Source: Burkholderiales bacterium (GTDB taxonomy: Bacteria; Pseudomonadota; Gammaproteobacteria; Burkholderiales; Burkholderiaceae_C). Taken from it: a stretch of DNA of 56,569 nt. The notes under the pieces are model-generated. The model ran no database searches. It worked only from the letters and a program-made list of their open reading frames with translations, and was not told where the DNA came from. Both the position numbers and the translations under genes were made by a program. Positions 41,390 to 55,450 of the stretch are shown here, piece after piece (position 1 is the stretch's first letter; every line of letters begins with the position of its first letter). The stretch covers positions 1 through 56,569 of the forward strand of contig JAABRA010000392.1 of assembly GCA_011391155.1 (NCBI GenBank). The letters run 5' to 3'.

Positions 41390-42217
41390 ATGATTGACCT
41401 GATCCAGATCACCAACGACCCCGATCTTGCGCGCCGCTGCGATGCGCTGGAGGGCCTGCGGCTGTTCGTCGATCTGGAGCGCCTCGGCAAGGCCGAGCGC
41501 CAGGCTGGACGCAACACCTTCATCAGCGCCCATCAACTGGACGATGTGGCGCGTATCCGGGCTGTGCTGAAGCGCGCCCGGCTGATGGTGCGCGTGAACC
41601 CGCTGAACCCGGACAGTGCCGTCGAGGTGGATGCCGTGCTGGAACGCGGTGCCGACTGGCTCATGCTGCCCATGTTCACCCGGGCGGACGAAGTGCAGAC
41701 GTTTGCCGCGCTCGTGGCCGGCCGCGCGCCCATCGTCGCTTTGCTGGAGACGGCCGGCGCGCTGGCCACGCTGGACAAATGGATCGCCACGCCCGGCCTG
41801 TGCGAGGTGTTCGTCGGCCTGAACGATCTGCATCTTTCCCTGGGCGACCATTTCATGTTCGAACCGCTGGCGAACGGCCTGGTGGAGCGTGTGGCGGTGG
41901 CCGCCCGACAGCAAGGCCTGCGTTTTGGTTTTGGCGGCATCGCGCGGCTCGATGAAGGATTGCTGCCCGGGCGCGACGTGCTGGCCGAGCACCTGCGGCT
42001 GGGGTCACAGGCGGTGATTTTGTCGCGCACCTTCAATCGACCCGACGAGTCCGGCGCGCCAGCACACCCGTTTGAAGTCGAGGTGGCGGCCCTGCGGCAG
42101 GCCGAGCGCGCGCTGGCGGGGCGTACCCCGGCGCAGGTGGAAATGGACCGCACCCGCATTGGCGGCGTCATCAAGGCCATCGCCAGGTCGATCGGTGTGC
42201 GAACGGAGGCCGCTTGA
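41390..42217 (+). CDS. HpcH/HpaI aldolase/citrate lyase family protein
   Basis: ALLETAGALATLDKWIATPGLCEVFVGLNDLHLSLG pattern of the HpcH/HpaI fold. Confidence 0.8.
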   Translation: MIDLIQITNDPDLARRCDALEGLRLFVDLERLGKAERQAGRNTFISAHQLDDVARIRAVLKRARLMVRVNPLNPDSAVEVDAVLERGADWLMLPMFTRADEVQTFAALVAGRAPIVALLETAGALATLDKWIATPGLCEVFVGLNDLHLSLGDHFMFEPLANGLVERVAVAARQQGLRFGFGGIARLDEGLLPGRDVLAEHLRLGSQAVILSRTFNRPDESGAPAHPFEVEVAALRQAERALAGRTPAQVEMDRTRIGGVIKAIARSIGVRTEAA

Positions 42218-42771: not shown

Positions 42772-44583
42772 ATGTGCGGCATCTTCGGATATTGGGATCG
42801 ATCCCGCCAGCCGCTGGAGGAGGGCGCCCTGGGCGCCATGGCGCACGCCCTGGTGCACCGCGGCCCGGACGATGAAGGCATCTGGCACCAGCCCGGGCGC
42901 GGCGTGGCCGTTGGCAACCGGCGCTTGTCGATCATCGACATCGGCGGCGGCCACCAACCCTTCGTCAGCGACGACGGGCGGGTCGCCGTGGTGCAGAACG
43001 GCGAGATCTTCAACTACGTGGAGCTCGCCGCCGAACTGCGTGCGCAAGGCGTTCGGCTCGACACGCATTCGGACACGGAAGTCATCCTGCGCCTGTACGA
43101 GCGCGAGGGCATCGCCTGTCTCAAGCGCCTGAACGGCATGTTCGCCATCGCTATCGACGACGCGCGCGAGGATGCGCTTTATCTGGCGCGCGACCGCATC
43201 GGTGTGAAGCCGCTTTACGTGCTCGACGACGGCCAGCGCGCCCTGTTTGCATCAGAAATCAAGGCTTTTTGGCCTGTTCCCAGCGTCGCCAGGTCTTCAT
43301 CTGCTATCGATCTGGAAGCGATTCACCACTACCTCACGTTCAACTACATCCCGGCTCCCTGGACGGCGTACCAGGGCGTCAAGCATGTGATGCCCGGAAC
43401 CTGGATGAAATTCACACGCGGGACCGCAGTGGAGACCCGGCGCTGGTGGAACCTGGCCGACCAGCGCGAGCAGGACTTCGGGTTTGACGACTGGGCCAAC
43501 GAATTCATGGCCCTGCTGGACGACGCCACGCGCATCCGGCTGCGCGCCGACGTGCCTTTCGGCGCTTTCCTGTCCGGTGGCGTCGATTCGAGCACCATCG
43601 TCGGCCTGATGGCGCGCCATGTGGATCGGCCCGTCAAGACCTTCTGCATTGGCTTCGAAGACCCGCGCTACGACGAATCGGCGTTTGCGCTGCAGGCGGC
43701 GCAGCGCTTCGGCTGCGAGCACACCAGCGAAATCGCCGAACTCAACATGCTCGCACAGTGGCCGCGCGTGCTGCGCCACCTGGACCAGCCGCATGGCGAT
43801 GCCTCCTTCATGCCGACGCTGCGCGTCAGCGAGCTGGCGGCGAAGCAGGTGAAGGTGGTGCTGACCGGAGACGGCGGCGACGAGCTGTTTGCCGGCTACG
43901 ACAAATATGCGGCGTTTTTCGCCCAGCCTGAAGCCGCTTCCCTGTCTGCGGAGCGGTTCCAGCGCCGCTATTTCGACGCGATTTCGCTGTTTTCGCCCCA
44001 GGCCAAGCTGGCGCTGTACCGTCCCGAAGTGCGAAAACGGCTTGAAGGCATCGACAGTTTCACGGCTGCCGCCAAGCCGTGGTTCGACGAGGCGTTGCAC
44101 TTCGACCGGGTCAACCAGGCGCTGTACCTGGACATGCAGCTGCTGTTGAGCGGCAACAACCTGGTCAAGCCCGACCGCATGGGCATGGCCGTGAGCATCG
44201 AGGCGCGCACGCCGTTCCTGGACTGGCGCATGATGGAATTCGCCTTCCGCTCGCGCGGCGTGACCAAGCTGTCGGCGCAGGGCGACAAGAAGCACTGGTT
44301 CAAGCGCGCAGCGGCCCCGCTGATCGGCGAAGACCTGGCGCACCGCAAAAAGCAGATGTTCACCGTGCCGGTGGGCGACTGGTTCCGCCACGGCAGCTAC
44401 GCCTGGCTGCGCGACACCTTGCACGGCAGCGACCTGATCGCGCAGCTGTTCGAGCCTGCCGTCGTGACGTCGATGGTGGAGCGACACCGCACGGGCAACG
44501 CCAACTTCACGCGCGAGTTGCGCGCGCTGGCGGCGCTGGCGCTGTGGGGGCAAGGCGACGCATCCGGATCGACGGGCGCATGA
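42772..44583 (+). CDS. asnB: Asparagine synthase (glutamine-hydrolysing) family amidotransferase
   Basis: MCGIFGYWDRS N-terminal Cys; FGAFLSGGVDSSTIVGLMA PP-loop. Confidence 0.93.
   Translation: MCGIFGYWDRSRQPLEEGALGAMAHALVHRGPDDEGIWHQPGRGVAVGNRRLSIIDIGGGHQPFVSDDGRVAVVQNGEIFNYVELAAELRAQGVRLDTHSDTEVILRLYEREGIACLKRLNGMFAIAIDDAREDALYLARDRIGVKPLYVLDDGQRALFASEIKAFWPVPSVARSSSAIDLEAIHHYLTFNYIPAPWTAYQGVKHVMPGTWMKFTRGTAVETRRWWNLADQREQDFGFDDWANEFMALLDDATRIRLRADVPFGAFLSGGVDSSTIVGLMARHVDRPVKTFCIGFEDPRYDESAFALQAAQRFGCEHTSEIAELNMLAQWPRVLRHLDQPHGDASFMPTLRVSELAAKQVKVVLTGDGGDELFAGYDKYAAFFAQPEAASLSAERFQRRYFDAISLFSPQAKLALYRPEVRKRLEGIDSFTAAAKPWFDEALHFDRVNQALYLDMQLLLSGNNLVKPDRMGMAVSIEARTPFLDWRMMEFAFRSRGVTKLSAQGDKKHWFKRAAAPLIGEDLAHRKKQMFTVPVGDWFRHGSYAWLRDTLHGSDLIAQLFEPAVVTSMVERHRTGNANFTRELRALAALALWGQGDASGSTGA
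43265..43312 (+). repeat. Element A copy 9, inside asnB
   Basis: CTTTTTGGCCTGTTCCCAGCGTCGCCAGGTCTTCATCTGCTATCGATC. Confidence 0.78.
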
Positions 44584-45779
44584 AAAAGGTCCTGTTTGTC
44601 GCCTACGGCAGTGGCCACATCAAGATGGTGGTGCCGTTGGCCCAGGCTCTGGCCGAGAGCGGCCGGGCGGAACCTGTGGTGCTGGCCTTGACGACGGCAG
44701 CGCCGGTTGCGCGCGCCGCCGGGCTGGCGGTGATCCAGTTCAAGGACTTCGTGACCAGCGGCGATGGCGCGGCCCTGCAACTGGGCGAGCGCCTGATGCA
44801 GGGGCTGGGCGGACAGGTTGACGATCCGCAGGAGACCGCGGCCTATCTGGGCTTGTCCATGGCCGACCTGATCGACGAAGTCGGTGCCGAAAAGGCGGAG
44901 CTGGCCTACCGGCAATTCGGTCGCCAGGCGTTCTTGCCGGTCCGGACCTTGCATCGCATCCTGCGGCAGGTGATGCCCGATCTGGTCGTTTGCACGAATT
45001 CGCCACGGGCGGAACGCGCGGCGGTGCTGGGGGCCCGGCAACTTGGCATTCCGTCGGTCTGCGTGGTGGACCTGTTCGCGATCGACGAGGTGAAGTGGAT
45101 TGGCTCGCCCGACTATGCCGACCAGGTCTGTGTCCTGAACGAATCGGTCCGGCAGTTCCTGCTGGCGGCGGGGCGCTCCGGGGAACAGGTCGTGGTGACC
45201 GGGAATCCCGGCTTCGACGCGCTCAACGCCCCGGCAACGCTGGTGCAAGGGCGCCAGATCCGCGAGGCGCGTGGCTGGCTGAACCGGCGCGTGATCCTGT
45301 GGCCCACGCAGGTCGAGCCGCCTTTTCACCCGTTTGATGGCCGGCCAGGCGACCCCACCCTGCCGGCGCGGGCGCTGGCCGCGGTGATGCAGTGGGTGCT
45401 TGCTCGCACGGACAGCGTGCTGTGCATCCGTCCCCGGGCGGGCGAGGCCTTGCCGATCGTCCCCGCCGACCCGCGCATCGTGTTCACCGGGCAGGACTGG
45501 CCGCTGGCGCCGTTGCTGCATGCCACCGACCTGGTGGTCACCCTCACTTCGACCGTCGGGCTGGAAGGTCATCTGGCCGGCTGCCGGCTTATTCAGGTGC
45601 TGGGCTCCGTCTTCGATGAGGCCATGCCGCTGGCCCGTTATGGCATCGCCGACGCGGCCGTTCCGGTGGAGGCCATCGCCCAGGCGCTGGACAGTTGGGT
45701 TGGCGCCTCGCGCCTGGCCCTGCAGGGGCAGGCGACGGCGACCCGGCAGGTGCTGGCCGTCATGGGCAAATTCCTATAA
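44580..45779 (+). CDS. GT-B-fold glycosyltransferase / 2-epimerase-like protein of the glycan cluster
   Basis: KKVLFVAYGSGHIKMVVPLAQALAESG N-terminal nucleotide-sugar fold, C-terminal ATDLVVTLTSTVGLEGHLAGCRLIQV; family assignment approximate. Confidence 0.6.
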   Translation: MKKVLFVAYGSGHIKMVVPLAQALAESGRAEPVVLALTTAAPVARAAGLAVIQFKDFVTSGDGAALQLGERLMQGLGGQVDDPQETAAYLGLSMADLIDEVGAEKAELAYRQFGRQAFLPVRTLHRILRQVMPDLVVCTNSPRAERAAVLGARQLGIPSVCVVDLFAIDEVKWIGSPDYADQVCVLNESVRQFLLAAGRSGEQVVVTGNPGFDALNAPATLVQGRQIREARGWLNRRVILWPTQVEPPFHPFDGRPGDPTLPARALAAVMQWVLARTDSVLCIRPRAGEALPIVPADPRIVFTGQDWPLAPLLHATDLVVTLTSTVGLEGHLAGCRLIQVLGSVFDEAMPLARYGIADAAVPVEAIAQALDSWVGASRLALQGQATATRQVLAVMGKFL

Positions 45780-45851: not shown

Positions 45852-47168
45852 ATGTCACTCATCCCCAACCCTGCTTCCGTTGATTTTTCGGCTTTTGATG
45901 CCAGCGACGACGACGCTCGCGTGATGTACGGCCTGCCGCGGTATGTGCATTTCTGCAAGAAGTGCGTGATCTCCAACCAGCGGCCCAACTCGGCCGTGGA
46001 GTACCAGCACACCAAAGCCAGCAAGAAAGCCACCATTGCCTTCGACGAGGAAGGCGTCTGCGATGCCTGCCGCTTTGCCGAGCAGAAGCACGGCACCATC
46101 AACTGGAAGGACCGGGAAGACCAGCTGGCCGTCCTGTGCGACAAGTTTCGCAGCAAGTCGGGTTACGACTGCCTGCTGCCCGGCTCCGGCGGCAAGGACA
46201 GTTTTTATGCCTCGCACATGCTCAAGACGCGCTTTGGCATGCATCCGCTGACCGTGACCTGGGCGCCCCATGTCTACACGGAATGGGGCTGGAAGAATTT
46301 CCAGTCCTGGCTGCACGCCGGGTTTGACAACTACCTCATGACGCCCAACGGCCGGGTGCACCGGCTGCTGACCCGCCTGGCGGTGGACAACCTGTTTCAC
46401 CCTTTCCAGGCGTTCATGTTCGGCCAGAAATCCCTGGCGCCCAAGATGGCCCTGCTGCACGACATTCCGTTCGTGGTGTATGGCGAAAACGAAGCCGAAT
46501 ATGGCAACCCGATTGGCGACACCAGCAGCGCCCAGCGTGACTGGTCGTATTTCACGTCGGCCAACAAGGCCGAGATCTACCTGGGCGGCACCTCGGTGCA
46601 AAGCCTGTACGACGACTTTGGCCTGGAAGAGCAGGACCTGCTGCCCTATCTGCCGGCCGATCCGGCCCAGATGCAGCGCAAGCAGGTCGAGGTGCATTAC
46701 CTGGGCTACTATCTCAAGTGGCATCCGCAGAGCTGTTACTACTACGCGGTGGAGCATGGCGGCTTTGAGGCGTCGCCCGAGCGCACGCCCGGCACCTACA
46801 GCAAGTACAACAGCATCGACGACCGCATCGACGACTTTCATTACTACACCACCTTTACCAAGTTCGGCATCGGTCGCGCCACGTATGACGCGGCGCAGGA
46901 AATCCGCTCGGGCGACATCAACCGCGACGAGGGCGTGGCGCTGGTGCGGCGCTATGACGGCGAATTCCCGGAGCGTTTCGCCGAGGAAATCTTCCGTTAC
47001 CTGAGCATCCCGGAGAAGGAGTTCGGGCGCGCCAGCAAAATGTTCGAAGCGCCGGTCATGGACCGCGACTACTTCATGCGCCTGGCCGACACCTTCCGTT
47101 CCCCCCACCTCTGGAAGCGCGAGAACGGGCAGTGGAAGCTGCGTCACACCGTGTTTGACGGCGTCTGA
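45852..47168 (+). CDS. N-acetyl sugar amidotransferase (WbpG/PseA family)
   Basis: FCKKCVISNQRPNSAVEYQHT, ICDACRFAE-like Cys motif, CLLPGSGGKDSFYASHMLKTRFGMHPLTVTWAPH PP-loop. Confidence 0.92.
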   Translation: MSLIPNPASVDFSAFDASDDDARVMYGLPRYVHFCKKCVISNQRPNSAVEYQHTKASKKATIAFDEEGVCDACRFAEQKHGTINWKDREDQLAVLCDKFRSKSGYDCLLPGSGGKDSFYASHMLKTRFGMHPLTVTWAPHVYTEWGWKNFQSWLHAGFDNYLMTPNGRVHRLLTRLAVDNLFHPFQAFMFGQKSLAPKMALLHDIPFVVYGENEAEYGNPIGDTSSAQRDWSYFTSANKAEIYLGGTSVQSLYDDFGLEEQDLLPYLPADPAQMQRKQVEVHYLGYYLKWHPQSCYYYAVEHGGFEASPERTPGTYSKYNSIDDRIDDFHYYTTFTKFGIGRATYDAAQEIRSGDINRDEGVALVRRYDGEFPERFAEEIFRYLSIPEKEFGRASKMFEAPVMDRDYFMRLADTFRSPHLWKRENGQWKLRHTVFDGV

Positions 47169-47178
47169 CCGCGGCGCC

Positions 47179-47934
47179 ATGGCGGGTTTGCGCATCATTC
47201 CCCGGCTCGACATCAAGGGCCCCAACCTGATCAAGGGCATCCGGCTGGAAGGACTGCGCGTGGTCGGCGATCCGCACGCGTTTGCCTTGCGCTACTACGC
47301 GCAGGGTGCGGATGAGCTGGTGTTCATGGACATCGTGGCCAGCCTCTACCAGCGCAACAGCCTGTCGGACATCATCCGGCGCGCGGCCGACCAAATCTAC
47401 ATTCCGATCACCGTGGGCGGCGGCATCCGTTCGCTGGACGATGTGCAGAACATGCTGCGCTCCGGCGCGGACAAGGTTGCCATCAACACCGCAGCCATAG
47501 CGCGGCCAGCCTTGATCGCCGAGGTGGCACGCCGCTTCGGCTCGCAGTGCATGGTGCTGTCGGTGGAAGCCAAACGTACCGGGCCGGGGCGCTGGGAGGC
47601 CTATACCGACAACGGCCGGGAGCACACCGGCCTGGACGTGATTGACTGGATTGCCCAGGCCGTGGAACTCGGGGCGGGAGAAATCCTGCTGACGGCGGTG
47701 GACCAGGAAGGCACGCGCAAAGGGCTGGATATCGAACTGCTGCGTGCTGTCAACGCGCGCGTCAACGTGCCGGTCATCACCAGCGGCGGCTTTGGTGAAC
47801 CGGTGGACCTGGAGCGCGCCAGTGCCGCAGGTGCGTCCGGCGTGGCCATTGCCGATGCCCTGCACTGGGGGCGCATGACGGTGCCCGAGATCAAGCAGCA
47901 GGCGCGGGCGCTGGGCGTGGAGGTGCGACTATGA
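47179..47934 (+). CDS. HisF-like cyclase subunit of sugar amidotransferase system (HisF2)
   Basis: RIIPRLDIKGPNLIKGIRLEGLRVVGDP (divergent from histidine HisF), linked to WbpG-like and HisH-like genes. Confidence 0.88.
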   Translation: MAGLRIIPRLDIKGPNLIKGIRLEGLRVVGDPHAFALRYYAQGADELVFMDIVASLYQRNSLSDIIRRAADQIYIPITVGGGIRSLDDVQNMLRSGADKVAINTAAIARPALIAEVARRFGSQCMVLSVEAKRTGPGRWEAYTDNGREHTGLDVIDWIAQAVELGAGEILLTAVDQEGTRKGLDIELLRAVNARVNVPVITSGGFGEPVDLERASAAGASGVAIADALHWGRMTVPEIKQQARALGVEVRL

Positions 47935-48581
47935 GCGCCCGTCATGTCACCGTGATCGACTACGGCATCGGCAACCTGCTCAACGTGGTGCGGGCGCTGG
48001 AACATTGCGGTGCCACGGTGCAGGTGGCCGAGCAGGCGACGCAGGTAGGCACCTTGCCGGACCGGCTGGTGCTGCCCGGCGTGGGCGCCTTCGCGGATGC
48101 CATGGCCGAATTGCGCGCGCGGGGCTTTGACGACCTGGTCAGGCGCTATGTCGATACCCGACGCCCGTTTCTGGGCATCTGCGTGGGGGCGCAACTGCTG
48201 TTCGAGGTGGGCGAAGAACATGGCGAGCACGCCGGCCTCGGGTTGATTCCCGGCCGGGTCCAGCCGGTTCCGGCCATCGACCCGGCTGGGCGCTCGCTGC
48301 GTGTGCCGCACATCGGATGGAGCGGCCTGGTGCGTCCGGCCGCGCGTGCGTCCTGGGATGGCACCATCCTGGCGTCGGCGCAACCCGGCGAGGCTGTGTA
48401 CTTTGTGCATTCCTACGCGCCGGTGCCCACGCATGAGGAACACCGGCTGGCCGATACCGATTACCACGGCGTGCGCATTTGCGCGGCTGTGGCGCGCGAC
48501 CACATCTATGGCTGCCAGTTTCATCCCGAGCGCAGCGCCGAGGCCGGGCTGGGCATTCTCGGCCAGTTTCTTTCGCTGTGA
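47931..48581 (+). CDS. HisH-like glutamine amidotransferase (HisH2)
   Basis: VTVIDYGIGNLLNVVRALEHCG; PFLGICVGAQLLFE; YGCQFHPERS. Confidence 0.9.
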   Translation: MSARHVTVIDYGIGNLLNVVRALEHCGATVQVAEQATQVGTLPDRLVLPGVGAFADAMAELRARGFDDLVRRYVDTRRPFLGICVGAQLLFEVGEEHGEHAGLGLIPGRVQPVPAIDPAGRSLRVPHIGWSGLVRPAARASWDGTILASAQPGEAVYFVHSYAPVPTHEEHRLADTDYHGVRICAAVARDHIYGCQFHPERSAEAGLGILGQFLSL

Positions 48582-48589
48582 AGGCGCGC

Positions 48590-49297
48590 ATGCCTGTGTT
48601 CCGAACCATCGCCACCATTTGCGCGCGGGGCGGCAGCAAGGGCCTGCCCGGCAAGAACCTCCGCGACTTCGCGGGCAAGCCATTGATCGTCCATTCGATC
48701 GCGCAGGCGCTGGCATGTCCGGACATCAACGCAGTGTACGTGTCCACGGATGACCCGGCGATTGCGGCGGTCGCGCGCGCCGCAGGGGCCGAAGTGCCTT
48801 ATATGCGGCCGGCCGAGCTGGCCAGCGATGCAGCGCCGAAACTGCCGGTGATCGAGCATCTGGTCCGGCATCTGGAACAGCAGGGACAAACCATCGCTCG
48901 CGTGGTGGACTTGCAGCCGACCTCGCCGCTGCGCGATGCCGCTGACATTGCCGCCGCGCTGCGGACGCAGCCTGACGCGGACCTCGTCGTAAGCGTGAAA
49001 GAAGCGGGCGACAACCCGTATTTCAACCTGGTGGAGCCGGGCGAAGACGGCTGGATGCACCTGTGCAAAGGGCAGGGCAGCACCCGCCGGCAGGCGGCCC
49101 CGGCGGTGTATGCGTTGAATGGCTCCATCTATGTCTGGCGGCGCGCGGCGCTGGCCCATGCGGCGGTGCACGGCCTGTGGAGCGTCCACATTGCCACGTT
49201 TGTCATGCCGCGCTGGAAATCCGTCGATATCGACGATCTGGAAGATTTTGAACAGGCGCTCTGGCTCTACCAGCGCCACGCAGGAGATGCACCGTGA
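48590..49297 (+). CDS. CMP-nonulosonic acid (N-acetylneuraminate/legionaminate) cytidylyltransferase
   Basis: TIATICARGGSKGLPGKNLRDFAGKPLIVHSI; LQPTSPLRDAADI. Confidence 0.88.
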   Translation: MPVFRTIATICARGGSKGLPGKNLRDFAGKPLIVHSIAQALACPDINAVYVSTDDPAIAAVARAAGAEVPYMRPAELASDAAPKLPVIEHLVRHLEQQGQTIARVVDLQPTSPLRDAADIAAALRTQPDADLVVSVKEAGDNPYFNLVEPGEDGWMHLCKGQGSTRRQAAPAVYALNGSIYVWRRAALAHAAVHGLWSVHIATFVMPRWKSVDIDDLEDFEQALWLYQRHAGDAP

Positions 49298-50331
49298 TCA
49301 CCATTGTTCCGCCCGTTTTCGTGATTGCCGAAGCTGGCGTCAACCACAACGGCGACCTGGGTCTGGCGCTGCGCCTGTGCGAGGCCGCGCACTCGGCGGG
49401 TGCCGATGCCGTCAAGTTCCAGACCTTCCGTGCGCAGGACCTGGTGGTGCCTGGCGCGCCAACCGCCGGCTACCAGGCGCGCCAGACCGGCGAGCAGGAC
49501 CAGTTCGCCATGCTCCAGCGGCTGGAACTGTCGGAAGCCCAGCACCGCCAGATCCAGACGCATTGCCATGCCATCGGCATCGAGTTCTTTTCAACCCCGT
49601 TTTCGCTGGAGGCCGTGGACCTGCTTGTCGGTCTGGGTGTCAAACGGCTCAAGCTGTCATCGGGCGAACTCACCCACCGGGCGCTCGTAGAGCACGCCGC
49701 CGCCACGCAGTTGCCGCTGCTGATGTCCACCGGCATGGCCACCATGGCGGAAATCACAGAGGCCGTCGGCTGGGTGCACGCTGCACGCGGGCACCTGCGC
49801 GATGTGGTGGTGCTGCACTGCACCTCGTCCTATCCGGCGCCTGACGAGACCCTGAACCTGCGGGCCATGCGGCAGATGGCCGACCAGCTGGGTGTGGCCA
49901 TCGGTTATTCGGACCACAGCCTGGGCATCGAAGCACCGCTAGCTGCGGTGGCGCTCGGCGCCGGGGTGATTGAAAAGCACCTGACGCTGGATTGCGCCAT
50001 GCCCGGCCCGGACCACAGCGCCTCGCTGGAGCCGGAAGCCTTCGCCCGCATGGTGCAGGGCATTCGCCGGGTGAGCGCCATGCTGGGGGACGGCGTCAAG
50101 GCACCGCGCCCCGATGAGCTGGACACGGCCCGCGTGGCGCGACGCAGTGTTGTGGTCACGCAGGCCATAGCGGCAGGCTCGGTGCTGACGGCAGACATGC
50201 TGGCCTGCCGGCGGCCCGCCACCGGCATCGCGCCGCGCGACCTGCCGCGTCTGGTGGGGCGGCGCGTGCGCCAGGCCATGGCCCCTGGCGCCGTGTTGCA
50301 GTGGGACCAACTCGAAGGCGAAGCCGGTTGA
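49294..50331 (+). CDS. NeuB-family nonulosonic acid synthase (sialic/legionaminic) with SAF domain
   Basis: VFVIAEAGVNHNGDLGLALRLCEAAHSAGADAVKFQTF; HCTSSYPAPDETLNLRAM; C-terminal antifreeze-like SAF. Confidence 0.92.
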   Translation: MITIVPPVFVIAEAGVNHNGDLGLALRLCEAAHSAGADAVKFQTFRAQDLVVPGAPTAGYQARQTGEQDQFAMLQRLELSEAQHRQIQTHCHAIGIEFFSTPFSLEAVDLLVGLGVKRLKLSSGELTHRALVEHAAATQLPLLMSTGMATMAEITEAVGWVHAARGHLRDVVVLHCTSSYPAPDETLNLRAMRQMADQLGVAIGYSDHSLGIEAPLAAVALGAGVIEKHLTLDCAMPGPDHSASLEPEAFARMVQGIRRVSAMLGDGVKAPRPDELDTARVARRSVVVTQAIAAGSVLTADMLACRRPATGIAPRDLPRLVGRRVRQAMAPGAVLQWDQLEGEAG

Positions 50332-51476
50332 TGACCAGCCCGTCTGTCAGCCGGCGCAAGCTGATCTACCTGAGCGGCACGCGTGCCGACTTCGGCTTGA
50401 TGCAATCCACGCTGCGGCGCCTGGCGTCGGTGCTGGACCTCAGCGTGGCCGTGAGCGGGATGCACCTGGACGCGCGCTACGGCCGCACGGTGGATGAGAT
50501 TCGAGCGGCGGGCTTTCGGGTGTGCGGGGAAATTCCGGTGGACGTGGGCACCCGGACGCCGCAGAGCATGTCGGCGGGCGTCGGGGAATGCCTCATAGGC
50601 GTCACGGATCTGCTGGCGCGGGAGCGCCCCGACCTGTTGCTGCTGCTCGGCGACCGCGGCGAGATGCTGGCGGGTGCGATCGCCGCGCTGCATCTGGGCG
50701 TCGTGTGCGTTCATGTGCATGGGGGTGAGCGCTCGGGCACGGTGGATGAACCGGTACGCCATGCCATCAGCAAACTGTGCAGTTATCACTTGGTGGCCAC
50801 GCTGGAATCGCAGGAACGGCTGCGGCGCATGGGCGAAGCGGCGGAACGCATCTTCGTGACCGGTGCGCCGGGTCTGGACGGGCTCCATGCCGAGGCCGCG
50901 ATGGGTGCGTCGGAATGCCGCGCGGCGCTCGGTCTGCCGCAGCACGGCGCCTTCGCGCTGGTGGTTTTCCATCCGGTGGTGCAGCAGGCCGGCGATGCCT
51001 ACCGGCAGACCGCAGCGTTGTTGCAGGCCGTTTCGGCCGTGAAGCTGCCCGTGCTCTGGCTCGAACCCAATGCGGATGCAGGATCGCTCGATGTCGTGCG
51101 CGCCCTCGATGCGCTGCCGCTGCCGCCCGGCTCTCGCCGCGTGACGCACCTGGCCCGCCCCCTGTTTTGTGCCGTACTGCGCCACTGTGCGGTGATGGTG
51201 GGCAACTCCTCGGCCGGCATCATCGAGGCGGCATCGTTTGGCACCCCGGTGGTCAACGTGGGCGACCGGCAGCGACTGCGCGAACGCAATCCGAATGTGG
51301 TCGATGTGGGCAACGGGGCCGAAGCCATCGCTGTCGCCCTGCAGGCGGCGCTCTCGCAGGGCCGATGGACGTGTGACAATCGATACGGGGATGGTCGTGC
51401 CGGTGAGCGCATCGCGTCCCTGCTGTCGAGCCTGCCGCTGGACGCGTCCATCCTCGAAAAAACCAATACTTACTGA
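50331..51476 (+). CDS. UDP-N-acetylglucosamine 2-epimerase (hydrolysing), NeuC/LegG family
   Basis: RKLIYLSGTRADFGLMQSTLRRL; HVHGGERSGTVDEPVRHAISKL; GNSSAGIIEAASFGTPVVNVGDRQ. Confidence 0.92.
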   Translation: MTSPSVSRRKLIYLSGTRADFGLMQSTLRRLASVLDLSVAVSGMHLDARYGRTVDEIRAAGFRVCGEIPVDVGTRTPQSMSAGVGECLIGVTDLLARERPDLLLLLGDRGEMLAGAIAALHLGVVCVHVHGGERSGTVDEPVRHAISKLCSYHLVATLESQERLRRMGEAAERIFVTGAPGLDGLHAEAAMGASECRAALGLPQHGAFALVVFHPVVQQAGDAYRQTAALLQAVSAVKLPVLWLEPNADAGSLDVVRALDALPLPPGSRRVTHLARPLFCAVLRHCAVMVGNSSAGIIEAASFGTPVVNVGDRQRLRERNPNVVDVGNGAEAIAVALQAALSQGRWTCDNRYGDGRAGERIASLLSSLPLDASILEKTNTY

Positions 51477-51490
51477 TTGCCCCGACAGCC

Positions 51491-52153
51491 GTGCCTTCGC
51501 CGACCGCCTTGAATCCCCTCGCCGCTGTAGCGGTCGTCCCGGCTTCGCTGCTGCTGTTTGGCGCTGGCGGGCACGCGCGCGTCGTGGCCGACGCGGCGCT
51601 GGCCAGCGCGGCTTGGGGCAGCGTCATCGGCTCTGACCGCGACGCCTCGCGTTGCACCGGCGAACTCGTGCCGGGCGTGCGCTTGTTGCAGGCCGGCGAC
51701 GCAGCGCTGGACAGCATTGCAGGCATTCACATCGCCATCGGCAACAATCCGGCGCGCGAGACAGAGGCCGCCGCGTGGGGCCATGCACGCCTGGCGACCG
51801 TGATCCATCCGGCTGCGACGGTGTCACCGCTCGCCGAGATCGGCGCGGGATGTTTTGTGGCCGCCGGTGCCATCGTGGGACCCGGTGCGCGCGTGGCGAT
51901 GGGCGTGATCGTGAATCATGGCGCGGTTGTGGACCACGACGTGATGCTTGGCGCGTTCTGCCATGTGGCGCCGAACGCCACCCTCGGCGGCGGGGTGCGC
52001 ATCGGGCGGCGCGTGCTGGTGGGCGCCAGCGCGGTGGTGCTGCCTGGCATCACGATTGCCGACGACGTGGTGATCGGCGCTGGCGCCGTGGCGAACGCAC
52101 CACTGCTTGAGGCTGGCACCTATGCCGGTGTTCCGGCCAGGAAAATTCAATGA
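51491..52153 (+). CDS. NeuD/PglD-like sugar O/N-acetyltransferase
   Basis: LLLFGAGGHARVVADAAL; left-handed beta-helix hexapeptides (ATVSPLAEIGAGCFVAAGAIVGPGARV); GTG start. Confidence 0.88.
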   Translation: MPSPTALNPLAAVAVVPASLLLFGAGGHARVVADAALASAAWGSVIGSDRDASRCTGELVPGVRLLQAGDAALDSIAGIHIAIGNNPARETEAAAWGHARLATVIHPAATVSPLAEIGAGCFVAAGAIVGPGARVAMGVIVNHGAVVDHDVMLGAFCHVAPNATLGGGVRIGRRVLVGASAVVLPGITIADDVVIGAGAVANAPLLEAGTYAGVPARKIQ

Positions 52154-53655
52154 ACTCCGCTGATTTCAGGGCCCTGTGCGTGCGGCCCGATTGCACGCTG
52201 CACGATGCGCTGCTGCGCATGGACCAGACCGCGCGCGGCATCCTGCTGGTCCTGCGGGAGGATGGAACGCTGGCGCGCACGCTGACCGATGGCGACCTGC
52301 GGCGGGCCCGTCTGCAGCAACTGGGCGATGACATGGCGGTTTCAGCCCTGCCCGAACAGGTCGCACTCACGGTGGGCGAAGAGGCCACCGCGCCGGCGGT
52401 TCTGGGCCTGATGGATGCGCACCAGATCGATCACGTGCCGGTGGTCGATGGCGCCGGACGCCCCGTCGACCTGGTGCTTCGCCGCGAACTCTCCCAACGG
52501 ATCTGGCTGTCCTCGCCGCACCTGGGCGACGAGGAGGCCGCGTTTGTCGAAAACGCCTTCCAGACCAACTGGATCGCCCCGCTCGGGCCGCATGTGGACG
52601 GGTTCGAGCGCGAACTCGCCGCACACGTCGGTATCGGTCACGCTGCTGCGCTGAGCTCCGGCACCGCCGCGATCCACCTGGGCCTGCTGCTGCTCGGCGT
52701 GAGGCCCGGTGACACGGTGTTCTGCTCCTCGCTGACCTTTGTCGGCAGTTGCAACCCCATTCTTTACTGCGGTGCGCACCCGGTGTTCATCGATTCCGAG
52801 CCGAAAACCTGGAACATGTCGCCCGCGGCGCTGGAGCGTGCCCTCGATTGGTCAAGGCGCGAAGGTCGCCTGCCGCGCTGTGTCATCGTCGTCAACCTGT
52901 ACGGCCAGAGCGCCGACATCGATGCCCTGGCGCCCATCTGCGAACGCTACGGCGTGCCCATCCTCGAGGATGCCGCGGAGTCGCTCGGGGCGCGCTACAA
53001 GGGCCGTTACAGCGGAACCTTCGGCCGCCTGGCGGTGTATTCCTTCAATGGCAACAAGATCATCACCACCTCGGGTGGCGGCATGCTGGTGGCCGATGAT
53101 CCCGATCTGGTCGCGCGTGCGCGCAAGCTGGCGACGCAGGCGCGCGAGCCGGCGCGGCACTATGAGCACGTGGAAGCGGGTTTTAACTACCGCATGAGCA
53201 ACGTGCTGGCGGGCATTGGCCGTGGACAACTGCGCGTGCTGGAGCAGCGGGTGGCCCAGCGCCGCCAGGTGTTTGAGCGCTACCGGGCGGCCTTGTCGGA
53301 TATTCCCCAGTTGCACTGGATGCCCGAGCCGGCGGGCTTCCATTCCACACGCTGGCTGACCTGTTTCACGCTGGACGGGCCAGATGCGTCGCTCAAGTGT
53401 GACCTGATCATGAAGTTCCTGGAGCGCCACGCCATTGAAGCGCGACCCGTCTGGAAGCCGATGCACCTGCAGCCCCTGTTTGGCGCAGCGCCGTATTTTG
53501 CGCATCAGACGGCGGCGGACGTCTCGGCGCGGCTGTTCGATTCCGGAATCTGCCTGCCTTCCGGCTCCAACCTGACGCAGGAGCAGCAGGATCGCGTGAT
53601 TCTCCTGCTGCGCCGTGCGCTGTCGATGGCCGAGGATCGCCGTGCCCTTGCGTAA
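52150..53655 (+). CDS. Fusion of tandem CBS domain and DegT/DnrJ/EryC1 (PglE/LegC-like) PLP aminotransferase
   Basis: N-terminal CBS pair (RGILLVLREDGTLARTLTDGDLRRARL...HQIDHVPVVDGAGRPVDLV) then SSGTAAIHLGLLLLGVRPGD...EDAAESLGARYKGRYSGTFGRLAVYSFNGNKIITTSGGG. Confidence 0.9.
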   Translation: MNSADFRALCVRPDCTLHDALLRMDQTARGILLVLREDGTLARTLTDGDLRRARLQQLGDDMAVSALPEQVALTVGEEATAPAVLGLMDAHQIDHVPVVDGAGRPVDLVLRRELSQRIWLSSPHLGDEEAAFVENAFQTNWIAPLGPHVDGFERELAAHVGIGHAAALSSGTAAIHLGLLLLGVRPGDTVFCSSLTFVGSCNPILYCGAHPVFIDSEPKTWNMSPAALERALDWSRREGRLPRCVIVVNLYGQSADIDALAPICERYGVPILEDAAESLGARYKGRYSGTFGRLAVYSFNGNKIITTSGGGMLVADDPDLVARARKLATQAREPARHYEHVEAGFNYRMSNVLAGIGRGQLRVLEQRVAQRRQVFERYRAALSDIPQLHWMPEPAGFHSTRWLTCFTLDGPDASLKCDLIMKFLERHAIEARPVWKPMHLQPLFGAAPYFAHQTAADVSARLFDSGICLPSGSNLTQEQQDRVILLLRRALSMAEDRRALA

Positions 53656-55450
53656 GGAGTCCTTGCGCCTTTTGCTGGTGGACATGGCGCTGGTCCTGCT
53701 GGCGTGGTGGGCGGCGTTCTGGCTGCGTTTCAATCTCGACATCCCGCCGGAGTTCGAAACGCTGGCCACGCAGACCGCCGGCTGGGTCGTGCCCTGCTTT
53801 GCGCTGGGCTTGCTGACCGCCAGGGTATACCGGCACGTCTGGAGCTACGTTGGCTTGCCGGAGTTGCGCCAGCTCGGCGCGGGGGTGCTGCTGGGCGGAC
53901 TCATCACCGTGGCGGTGCTGCTGATGCTGCGTTTTCCCAATTTCCCGCGCTCGGTGCTGGTTCTCCACCCCCTGCTGGTCCTGGTGTTTCTGGGGGCGGC
54001 CCGGGCGGGGTGGCGCACTTTTTCCGAACGGTCCACCACGGCGTCGGGGGAACGTCCCCTGCTGATCGTCGGGTCCTTGCAGGATGCGGCTGACGCCTTG
54101 CGCGCGCTCAAGGGTTCCGGGCACTGGCATGCTGCCGGCATTGTTTCGCCGCTGCCGGCGGAGCAGGGGCGGTCCCTGCAGGGCGTCGAGGTGCTGGGCA
54201 GCGTGGCCGATCTGGCTGCCATCACCCGGGCAGCGGGCGTTCAGACCGCCTTGATGGCCATGGCGCCGGGTGCGCCCGGGCGTCGCGACGTGCTGCTGCA
54301 ATCGGCCGAGGCGGGGTTGTCGCTCATGACCTTGCCGCGGGCCGATGAATGGCTGCGGCATGACGGAGCTAGTCCGCGCAAGGTCGAACTCGAAGACCTG
54401 CTCGGCCGTGATCCGGTGGAACTCGACGTCAAAGGGCTTTCGGAACTGCTCTCGGGCCAGACAGTATTGGTCACGGGTGCCGGCGGCTCCATTGGCTCGG
54501 AACTGTGCCGGCAGATCGCGCGTTTTGGGGTCGCGCGCCTGGTTTGCGTGGACGTATCCGAGTACGCGATCTACCAGCTGGAGCAGGAGCTTCGTGCCGC
54601 CCATCCGCAGATGCAGGGCATGTACTACACCGCCAACGTGCGCGAACTGGCCCGGCTGCAGGCCATTGCGATCGCCAACCAACCGTCGGTGGTCTTCCAT
54701 GCGGCCGCCTACAAGCATGTGCCGTTGATGGAAGACCTCAACGAGATCGAGGCCCTGCGCACCAACGTGCTGGGCACGCTGCATGCGGCGCGCGTCGCCG
54801 GGCGCTGCGGTGCGAGGCGCTTCGTGATGATCTCCACCGACAAGGCGGTGAACCCGACCAATGTGATGGGCGCGACCAAGCGCATGGCCGAATTGGTGGT
54901 GCAGGGCGTGGCGGCGGAGTTCCCGGCGACCGAGTATGTGTCCGTGCGCTTTGGCAACGTCCTGGGGTCCAGCGGGTCAGTGGTGCCGCTGTTCACGGCG
55001 CAGATTGCGCGGGGCGGGCCGGTGACGGTGACACACCCGGACATCGTCCGCTACTTCATGACCATCCCCGAGGCGGCGCAACTGGTGCTGCAGGCGGGTC
55101 TGATGGGGCGTTCGGGCCAGATCTTCGTGCTCGACATGGGCGAACCGGTCAAGATCGTGGAGCTGGCGCGTATGCTGATTCGCCTCTCGGGCAAGACCGA
55201 GCAGGACATTCCGATTGCCTTCACCGGCCTGCGGCCCGGCGAGAAGCTCTACGAGGAATTGCTCGCCAACGATGAAACCACCGCGCCCACACCGCACCCC
55301 AAGCTGCGCGTGGCCCGAACCAGCGGCCAGCAGGTGGTCGTGGCGTCCGAGGTGCAGCAGTGGATTGACACCGTCGGGCCGGCTCCCGACCGCACGCTGT
55401 TGCGCAACTGGCTCCGGCAACAGGTGCCGGAGTACAGCTTTAACCGCTAA
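53642..55450 (+). CDS. Membrane-anchored UDP-GlcNAc 4,6-dehydratase (PglF/WbpM/CapD family)
   Basis: N-terminal TM bundle; VLVTGAGGSIGSELCRQIARFG; STDKAVNPTNVMGATKRMAE. GTG start assumed. Confidence 0.9.
   Translation: MPLRKESLRLLLVDMALVLLAWWAAFWLRFNLDIPPEFETLATQTAGWVVPCFALGLLTARVYRHVWSYVGLPELRQLGAGVLLGGLITVAVLLMLRFPNFPRSVLVLHPLLVLVFLGAARAGWRTFSERSTTASGERPLLIVGSLQDAADALRALKGSGHWHAAGIVSPLPAEQGRSLQGVEVLGSVADLAAITRAAGVQTALMAMAPGAPGRRDVLLQSAEAGLSLMTLPRADEWLRHDGASPRKVELEDLLGRDPVELDVKGLSELLSGQTVLVTGAGGSIGSELCRQIARFGVARLVCVDVSEYAIYQLEQELRAAHPQMQGMYYTANVRELARLQAIAIANQPSVVFHAAAYKHVPLMEDLNEIEALRTNVLGTLHAARVAGRCGARRFVMISTDKAVNPTNVMGATKRMAELVVQGVAAEFPATEYVSVRFGNVLGSSGSVVPLFTAQIARGGPVTVTHPDIVRYFMTIPEAAQLVLQAGLMGRSGQIFVLDMGEPVKIVELARMLIRLSGKTEQDIPIAFTGLRPGEKLYEELLANDETTAPTPHPKLRVARTSGQQVVVASEVQQWIDTVGPAPDRTLLRNWLRQQVPEYSFNR

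Follow-up and report, generated by a model that had tools for sequence, protein, structure and literature searches.

We identified, in a 56,569 bp stretch of a Burkholderiales contig (JAABRA010000392.1; hereafter the window), a gene that encodes a pair of CBS domains fused to a complete PglE/LegC-like aminotransferase within a cluster for nonulosonate synthesis. Sequence comparisons establish the architecture of the protein, the conservation of its CBS motif, its association with nonulosonate clusters, and the kinship of its CBS pair with that of PtmE-type enzymes. The CBS pair is probably best read as an allosteric sensor of a nucleotide, with CMP-legionaminate as the likeliest ligand, which would place the early-step aminotransferase under end-product feedback; we give this reading a probability of about 50%. 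The features of the cluster are listed in Table 1.

Table 1. Features of the nonulosonate cluster (window coordinates, bp).
Feature	Position	Strand	Evidence
WbuX-HisF-HisH-like amidotransferase trio	45852..48581	+	WbuX: TIGR03573 above cut-off; HisF/HisH named from sequence
CMP-nonulosonate cytidylyltransferase, LegF/PseF-like (start approximate)	48569..49297	+	PF02348; TIGR03584 below cut-off
NeuB/LegI-type nonulosonate synthase with SAF domain	49294..50331	+	TIGR03569 above cut-off; PF03102, PF08666
NeuC/LegG-type hydrolysing UDP-sugar 2-epimerase	50331..51476	+	TIGR03568 above cut-off
NeuD/PglD-type acetyltransferase, next catalytic step after the aminotransferase	51491..52153	+	TIGR03570 above cut-off
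Whole CBS-aminotransferase fusion gene, including stop	52150..53655	+	One open frame, 501 aa
N-terminal CBS pair (residues 1-115); predicted ligand motif R43-T-L-T-D47-G-D-L-R51-R52, CBS2 arginine R111	52150..52494	+	PF00571, conservation, fold
DegT/DnrJ/EryC1 aminotransferase domain, PglE/LegC type (residues 117-490)	52498..53619	+	PF01041, TIGR04181, fold
Membrane-type UDP-GlcNAc 4,6-dehydratase, PglF/WbpM kind, first UDP-route step (start approximate)	53642..55450	+	PF02719 7e-112

Pfam and fold comparisons agree on the domain order, and the description of the protein in an earlier sequence-only reading, as two CBS motifs running into a complete DegT/DnrJ/EryC1 aminotransferase, is borne out. 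PF00571 matches with an E-value of 7.6e-12, and residues 1-119 scanned alone yield two CBS stretches; PF01041 matches at 2.1e-95 over residues 125-485 and model positions 3-357 of 360, so the catalytic domain is complete. The N-terminus was placed by alignment with homologues. Because the second residue of PglE aligns to residue 117, directly behind CBS2, the two parts are joined without a linker. AlphaFold models have a mean pLDDT of 90.7 and a pTM of 0.88 for the fusion protein (with 33 sequences) and a mean pLDDT of 93.0 for the CBS pair alone. The protein has no Pfam match to the nucleotidyltransferase family PF00483, the catalytic domain of PtmE-type enzymes. A comparison with anti-phage defence families gave no match.

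The best NCBIfam match of the catalytic part is the LegC family TIGR04181, with PseC second. As its 355 bits fall below the curated cut-off of 420, we name the enzyme PglE/LegC-like and claim no formal LegC equivalog. The best sequence matches among solved structures are 1o61 and 4ztc, and the best fold match is PglE itself (4ztc, E 7.8e-42, 38% identity); together with the surrounding gene set, these support the earlier assignment to a PglE/LegC-like enzyme of a legionaminate-type cluster. K184, mutated to alanine in 4ztc, aligns to K303 in the motif SFNGNK, which is invariant across homologues and is, by this alignment, the putative catalytic PLP lysine. The window protein thus has in common with the UDP- or GDP-4-keto-6-deoxy-GlcNAc aminotransferases of the PglE/LegC group the whole aminotransferase domain and the catalytic lysine, whereas a CBS pair is absent from the PglE chain of known structure. 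By analogy with PglE, the enzyme would act on UDP-GlcNAc derivatives.

Legionaminate is a bacterial sialic-acid-like sugar. The window holds the full gene set expected for its UDP-linked synthesis (dehydratase, aminotransferase, acetyltransferase, hydrolysing epimerase, synthase and cytidylyltransferase), in the order WbuX-HisF-HisH, cytidylyltransferase, NeuB, NeuC, NeuD, CBS-aminotransferase, membrane dehydratase, and there is no PtmE within the window. The same UDP-linked chemistry, with a corresponding gene set, is found in the Sps pathway of Bacillus subtilis and in Legionella (PMC7439481, PMC6137143); the main text of PMC7439481 makes no mention of CBS domains, and a relative in Paenibacillus polymyxa (L099) has the aminotransferase in unfused form. 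The NeuC/NeuD/PglE-like set suggests legionaminate as the putative product over another 5,7-diamino nonulosonate, although the cytidylyltransferase scores as PseF, below the cut-off. The amidotransferase trio, homologues of which recur in related clusters, probably adds an acetamidino modification to the sugar. The ATG of the fusion gene and the stop codon of NeuD, the gene before it, share bases (ATGA), and the possible starts of the dehydratase gene fall within the 3' end of the fusion gene, so that the layout is operon-like. Just upstream of the legionaminate genes, behind a MurJ-like flippase, lie an HpcH/HpaI aldolase-like gene (41390-42217) and an asparagine-synthase-type amidotransferase (42772-44583); a protein of about 399 aa encoded between the latter and WbuX (44580-45779) has no Pfam match at 1e-5.

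The window comes from a fragmented draft genome of 414 contigs, and a sequencing artefact joining two genes had been named as what would refute the fusion. Such an error, whether of sequencing or of assembly, is vanishingly improbable and we reject it, since dozens of assemblies made independently of one another, some of them single-contig genomes, have the same architecture at full length. These homologues (51-79% identity) are mostly from Pseudomonadota. The fusion is full length and in one frame in nine of 100 related genomes and in 28 of the best 80 loci of a second collection; full-length fused homologues were also found in 4/368 other genomes drawn evenly from the class and in 4/398 from the phylum. 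Among the hosts are Ramlibacter, Polaromonas, Rubrivivax, Agrobacterium, Rhizobium, Devosia and Gammaproteobacteria, as well as metagenome-assembled genomes labelled Nitrospira and Phycisphaerae, labels that may be wrong. Most fused loci repeat the order cytidylyltransferase-NeuB-NeuC-NeuD-fusion. Since full-length homologues recur across collections, the fusion is genuine and not rare among the enzyme's kin, and the term unusual, applied to it earlier, is too strong for an architecture spread over Burkholderiales, Rhizobiales and other Pseudomonadota. The data do not show a single origin of the fusion: on the aminotransferase tree the fused label needs four changes, at least two of them forced by starred branches. 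A tree of the CBS pair, with 113 columns, has too few columns to resolve where the pair came from. No paper on a CBS-aminotransferase fusion was found in the open-access literature, the scope of our search.

Regarding the CBS pair, the ligand motif T/S-x-x-D is present as T46-D-G-D49, and CBS2 lacks the canonical Asp, with R111 and E113 instead. R43, D47, G48, D49, R51 and R52 are invariant in 38 of 38 fused homologues. Across these 38 proteins, mean pairwise identity is 42% in the CBS pair and 66% in the aminotransferase, so the RTxTDGDLRR motif is almost invariant although the part that carries it drifts faster than the catalytic part. The mean fraction of the commonest residue is 0.99 at the ligand-motif positions against 0.52 in the rest of the pair, a descriptive figure and no test, as the motif residues were picked after the alignment had been seen. 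This pattern, of a ligand site apparently retained on an otherwise drifting domain, fits nucleotide sensing.

D47, G48, R51 and R52 are common to the CBS pairs of the aminotransferase fusions, the PtmE type and the KdsD type. When scored with a profile built from the fused pairs, PtmE-type pairs reach 72-89 bits (median 81) and KdsD pairs 40-66 bits (median 56), which places the sensor closer to the PtmE type, the one that the sequence-only reading had named. PtmE-type enzymes of the GDP-linked route resemble the window protein in the [TS]DG[DN][LIV]RR motif, in the end product of their pathway and in being early enzymes, but carry a PF00483 nucleotidyltransferase where the window protein has an aminotransferase; the aminotransferases of that route form a separate group in the tree. 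The best solved match of the CBS pair, by sequence profile and by fold, is that of the arabinose-5-phosphate isomerase KdsD (4o9k), which we take to have been solved with CMP-Kdo; our open-access search on CMP-Kdo together with CBS returned nothing. KdsD/KpsF enzymes (4o9k, 3k2v, 3fna) have TDGDLRR in common with the fusion, but their CBS pair is C-terminal, their catalytic domain is SIS and their CBS profile score is lower. Two arginines are particular to the aminotransferase fusions, R43 (41/41) and R111 (40/41). Position 43 is glycine in all 47 PtmE- and KdsD-type pairs, and because R43 replaces it, the ligand or the interface of the fused pair may differ from theirs.

The distribution of the CBS pair follows nonulosonate synthesis. 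Anchored on the aminotransferase, NeuB and NeuC occur together in 39 of 41 fused loci (two pairs of which are identical proteins) against 2 of 58 unfused relatives of at least 45% identity, with a Fisher p of about 1e-22 in a calculation that ignores ancestry. The association is strong, with the qualification that most unfused relatives are Bacillota, so that the counts are confounded by ancestry; a phylogeny-aware independent-pairs test had no power. The Bacillota enzymes often have as neighbours NeuD and a recurring gene family, represented in proteobacteria by L038:9738-10346, a bacterial sugar transferase (PF02397), and these loci presumably make use of bacillosamine. None of the 41 fused loci has a PtmE-type CBS-nucleotidyltransferase. 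Anchored instead on NeuB (about 40% identity or more, evenly drawn phylum sample, window included), the pair sits on the aminotransferase in five loci, on a PtmE-type nucleotidyltransferase in 13 and on both in none, and it is absent from all nine NeuB+NeuC loci without the aminotransferase. One locus of this sample, L223, is an exception, with aminotransferase, NeuB and NeuC and no CBS pair nearby; L200, L205, L206, L224 and L225 are either truncated or different in kind. UDP-route clusters without CBS also exist (L099, L163). At the last of these (genome G014, also L008) a 79%-identical aminotransferase has no CBS pair. A frameshift or split CBS upstream was considered and rejected, as a three-frame reading shows NeuC leading straight into the aminotransferase, and the absence is therefore a real loss; NeuD is missing too, within the 19.5 kb read. 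The CBS pair is thus probably dispensable for catalysis.

According to the reading that we favour, a nucleotide would bind the TDGDLRR cleft of the CBS pair, and the likeliest candidate is CMP-legionaminate, the end product, or the acetamidino form of it. By way of the linker-less junction the signal would reach the N-terminal strand and the dimer of the aminotransferase and lower the activity of the enzyme, so that UDP-GlcNAc, which the cell wall also needs, would not be drained. In the GDP route, PtmE carries a sensor of the equivalent type. Until the free sugar is reached, the two routes run on different nucleotide sugars; they meet at 2,4-diacetamido-6-deoxymannose, legionaminate and CMP-legionaminate (PMC7439481, PMC6137143). 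Because each route has this sensor type on an early enzyme of its own, a common nucleotide ligand is the simplest explanation, and CMP-legionaminate is favoured as the pathway nucleotide that both routes have in common. A supporting parallel is that KdsD, whose CBS pair is the best solved match, is likewise an early enzyme of a CMP-ulosonate pathway, that of CMP-Kdo. The aminotransferase is indeed an early step, as had been stated, and from these comparisons the feedback idea appears plausible and regulation at an early step likely.

Several observations count against CMP-legionaminate feedback, namely R43 in place of glycine, the loci without CBS (L099, L163 and L223) and the confounding by ancestry. 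In other proteins, adenine nucleotides are common ligands of CBS pairs, as in many solved structures, and IMPDH with ATP, AcuB with AMP/ADP and PAE2072 with AMP rank high in the fold search. As the main rival reading, the pair could then be an energy-charge sensor that binds AMP, ADP or ATP and tunes surface-sugar flux to the energy state of the cell. We consider this doubtful, since it leaves unexplained why the pair tracks nonulosonate clusters, why one or the other of two non-homologous enzymes has it but never the two together, and why its nearest relatives in sequence are the PtmE- and KdsD-type pairs. The comparisons thus speak more for a ligand that the UDP and GDP routes have in common than for a general sensor of adenine nucleotides, and these nucleotides, which had been proposed alongside the CMP-sugar, do not seem to be the best-supported ligand.

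CBS pairs can bind varied nucleotides, and with an aminotransferase that, judging from PglE, acts on UDP-GlcNAc derivatives, the pair might respond to an intermediate or to a metabolite upstream (UDP-GlcNAc, UDP-bacillosamine, UTP/CTP or the free nonulosonate), for substrate activation or some other balancing of precursor pools. This is improbable: PtmE-route enzymes use GDP-linked sugars, which makes a common UDP-sugar ligand less likely, and the unfused relatives in loci without NeuB, probably with the same UDP substrate, have no CBS pair. CBS pairs also dimerise, and this one is fused without a linker, as might be expected of a ligand-free module for oligomerisation or protein docking, for instance one that passes intermediates on to NeuD or the membrane dehydratase. 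That role is a rather remote prospect, as it is the ligand-motif residues (D47, D49, R51, R52) that are conserved, and the pair is kept in L048, where a formyltransferase (L048:7213-8001) takes the position of NeuD beside the CBS-aminotransferase. The formyltransferase itself suggests an N-formylated variant of the sugar.

The CBS-aminotransferase fusion belongs to a known kind, of which it is a variant that recurs. Its sensor is found on two unrelated enzymes, mutually exclusive between routes, which points at a common ligand and puts the question within reach of a direct test. No description of feedback control of bacterial legionaminate synthesis was found in the open-access literature. If CMP-legionaminate is the ligand, the fusion would explain how cells keep the draw on UDP-GlcNAc in check, and the ligands of many unannotated CBS fusions could be predicted from CBS motifs. 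More tentatively, CBS pairs with [TS]DG[DN][LIV]RR could be a portable CMP-ulosonate sensor placed on whichever early enzyme controls the pathway (the KdsD SIS isomerase, the PtmE nucleotidyltransferase, the window aminotransferase or the GHMP-type kinase of L159 and L162), each feedback-inhibited by its own CMP-sugar. In these kinase fusions (L159:7392-8909 and L162:6210-7730) the CBS pair carries TDGDIRR, and they adjoin a NeuB-like synthase and a cytidylyltransferase, a CMP-ulosonate-like cluster. The first of the two loci also encodes a 635-aa protein (L159:9809-11716) in which a NeuB domain is fused to a xylose-isomerase-like TIM barrel.
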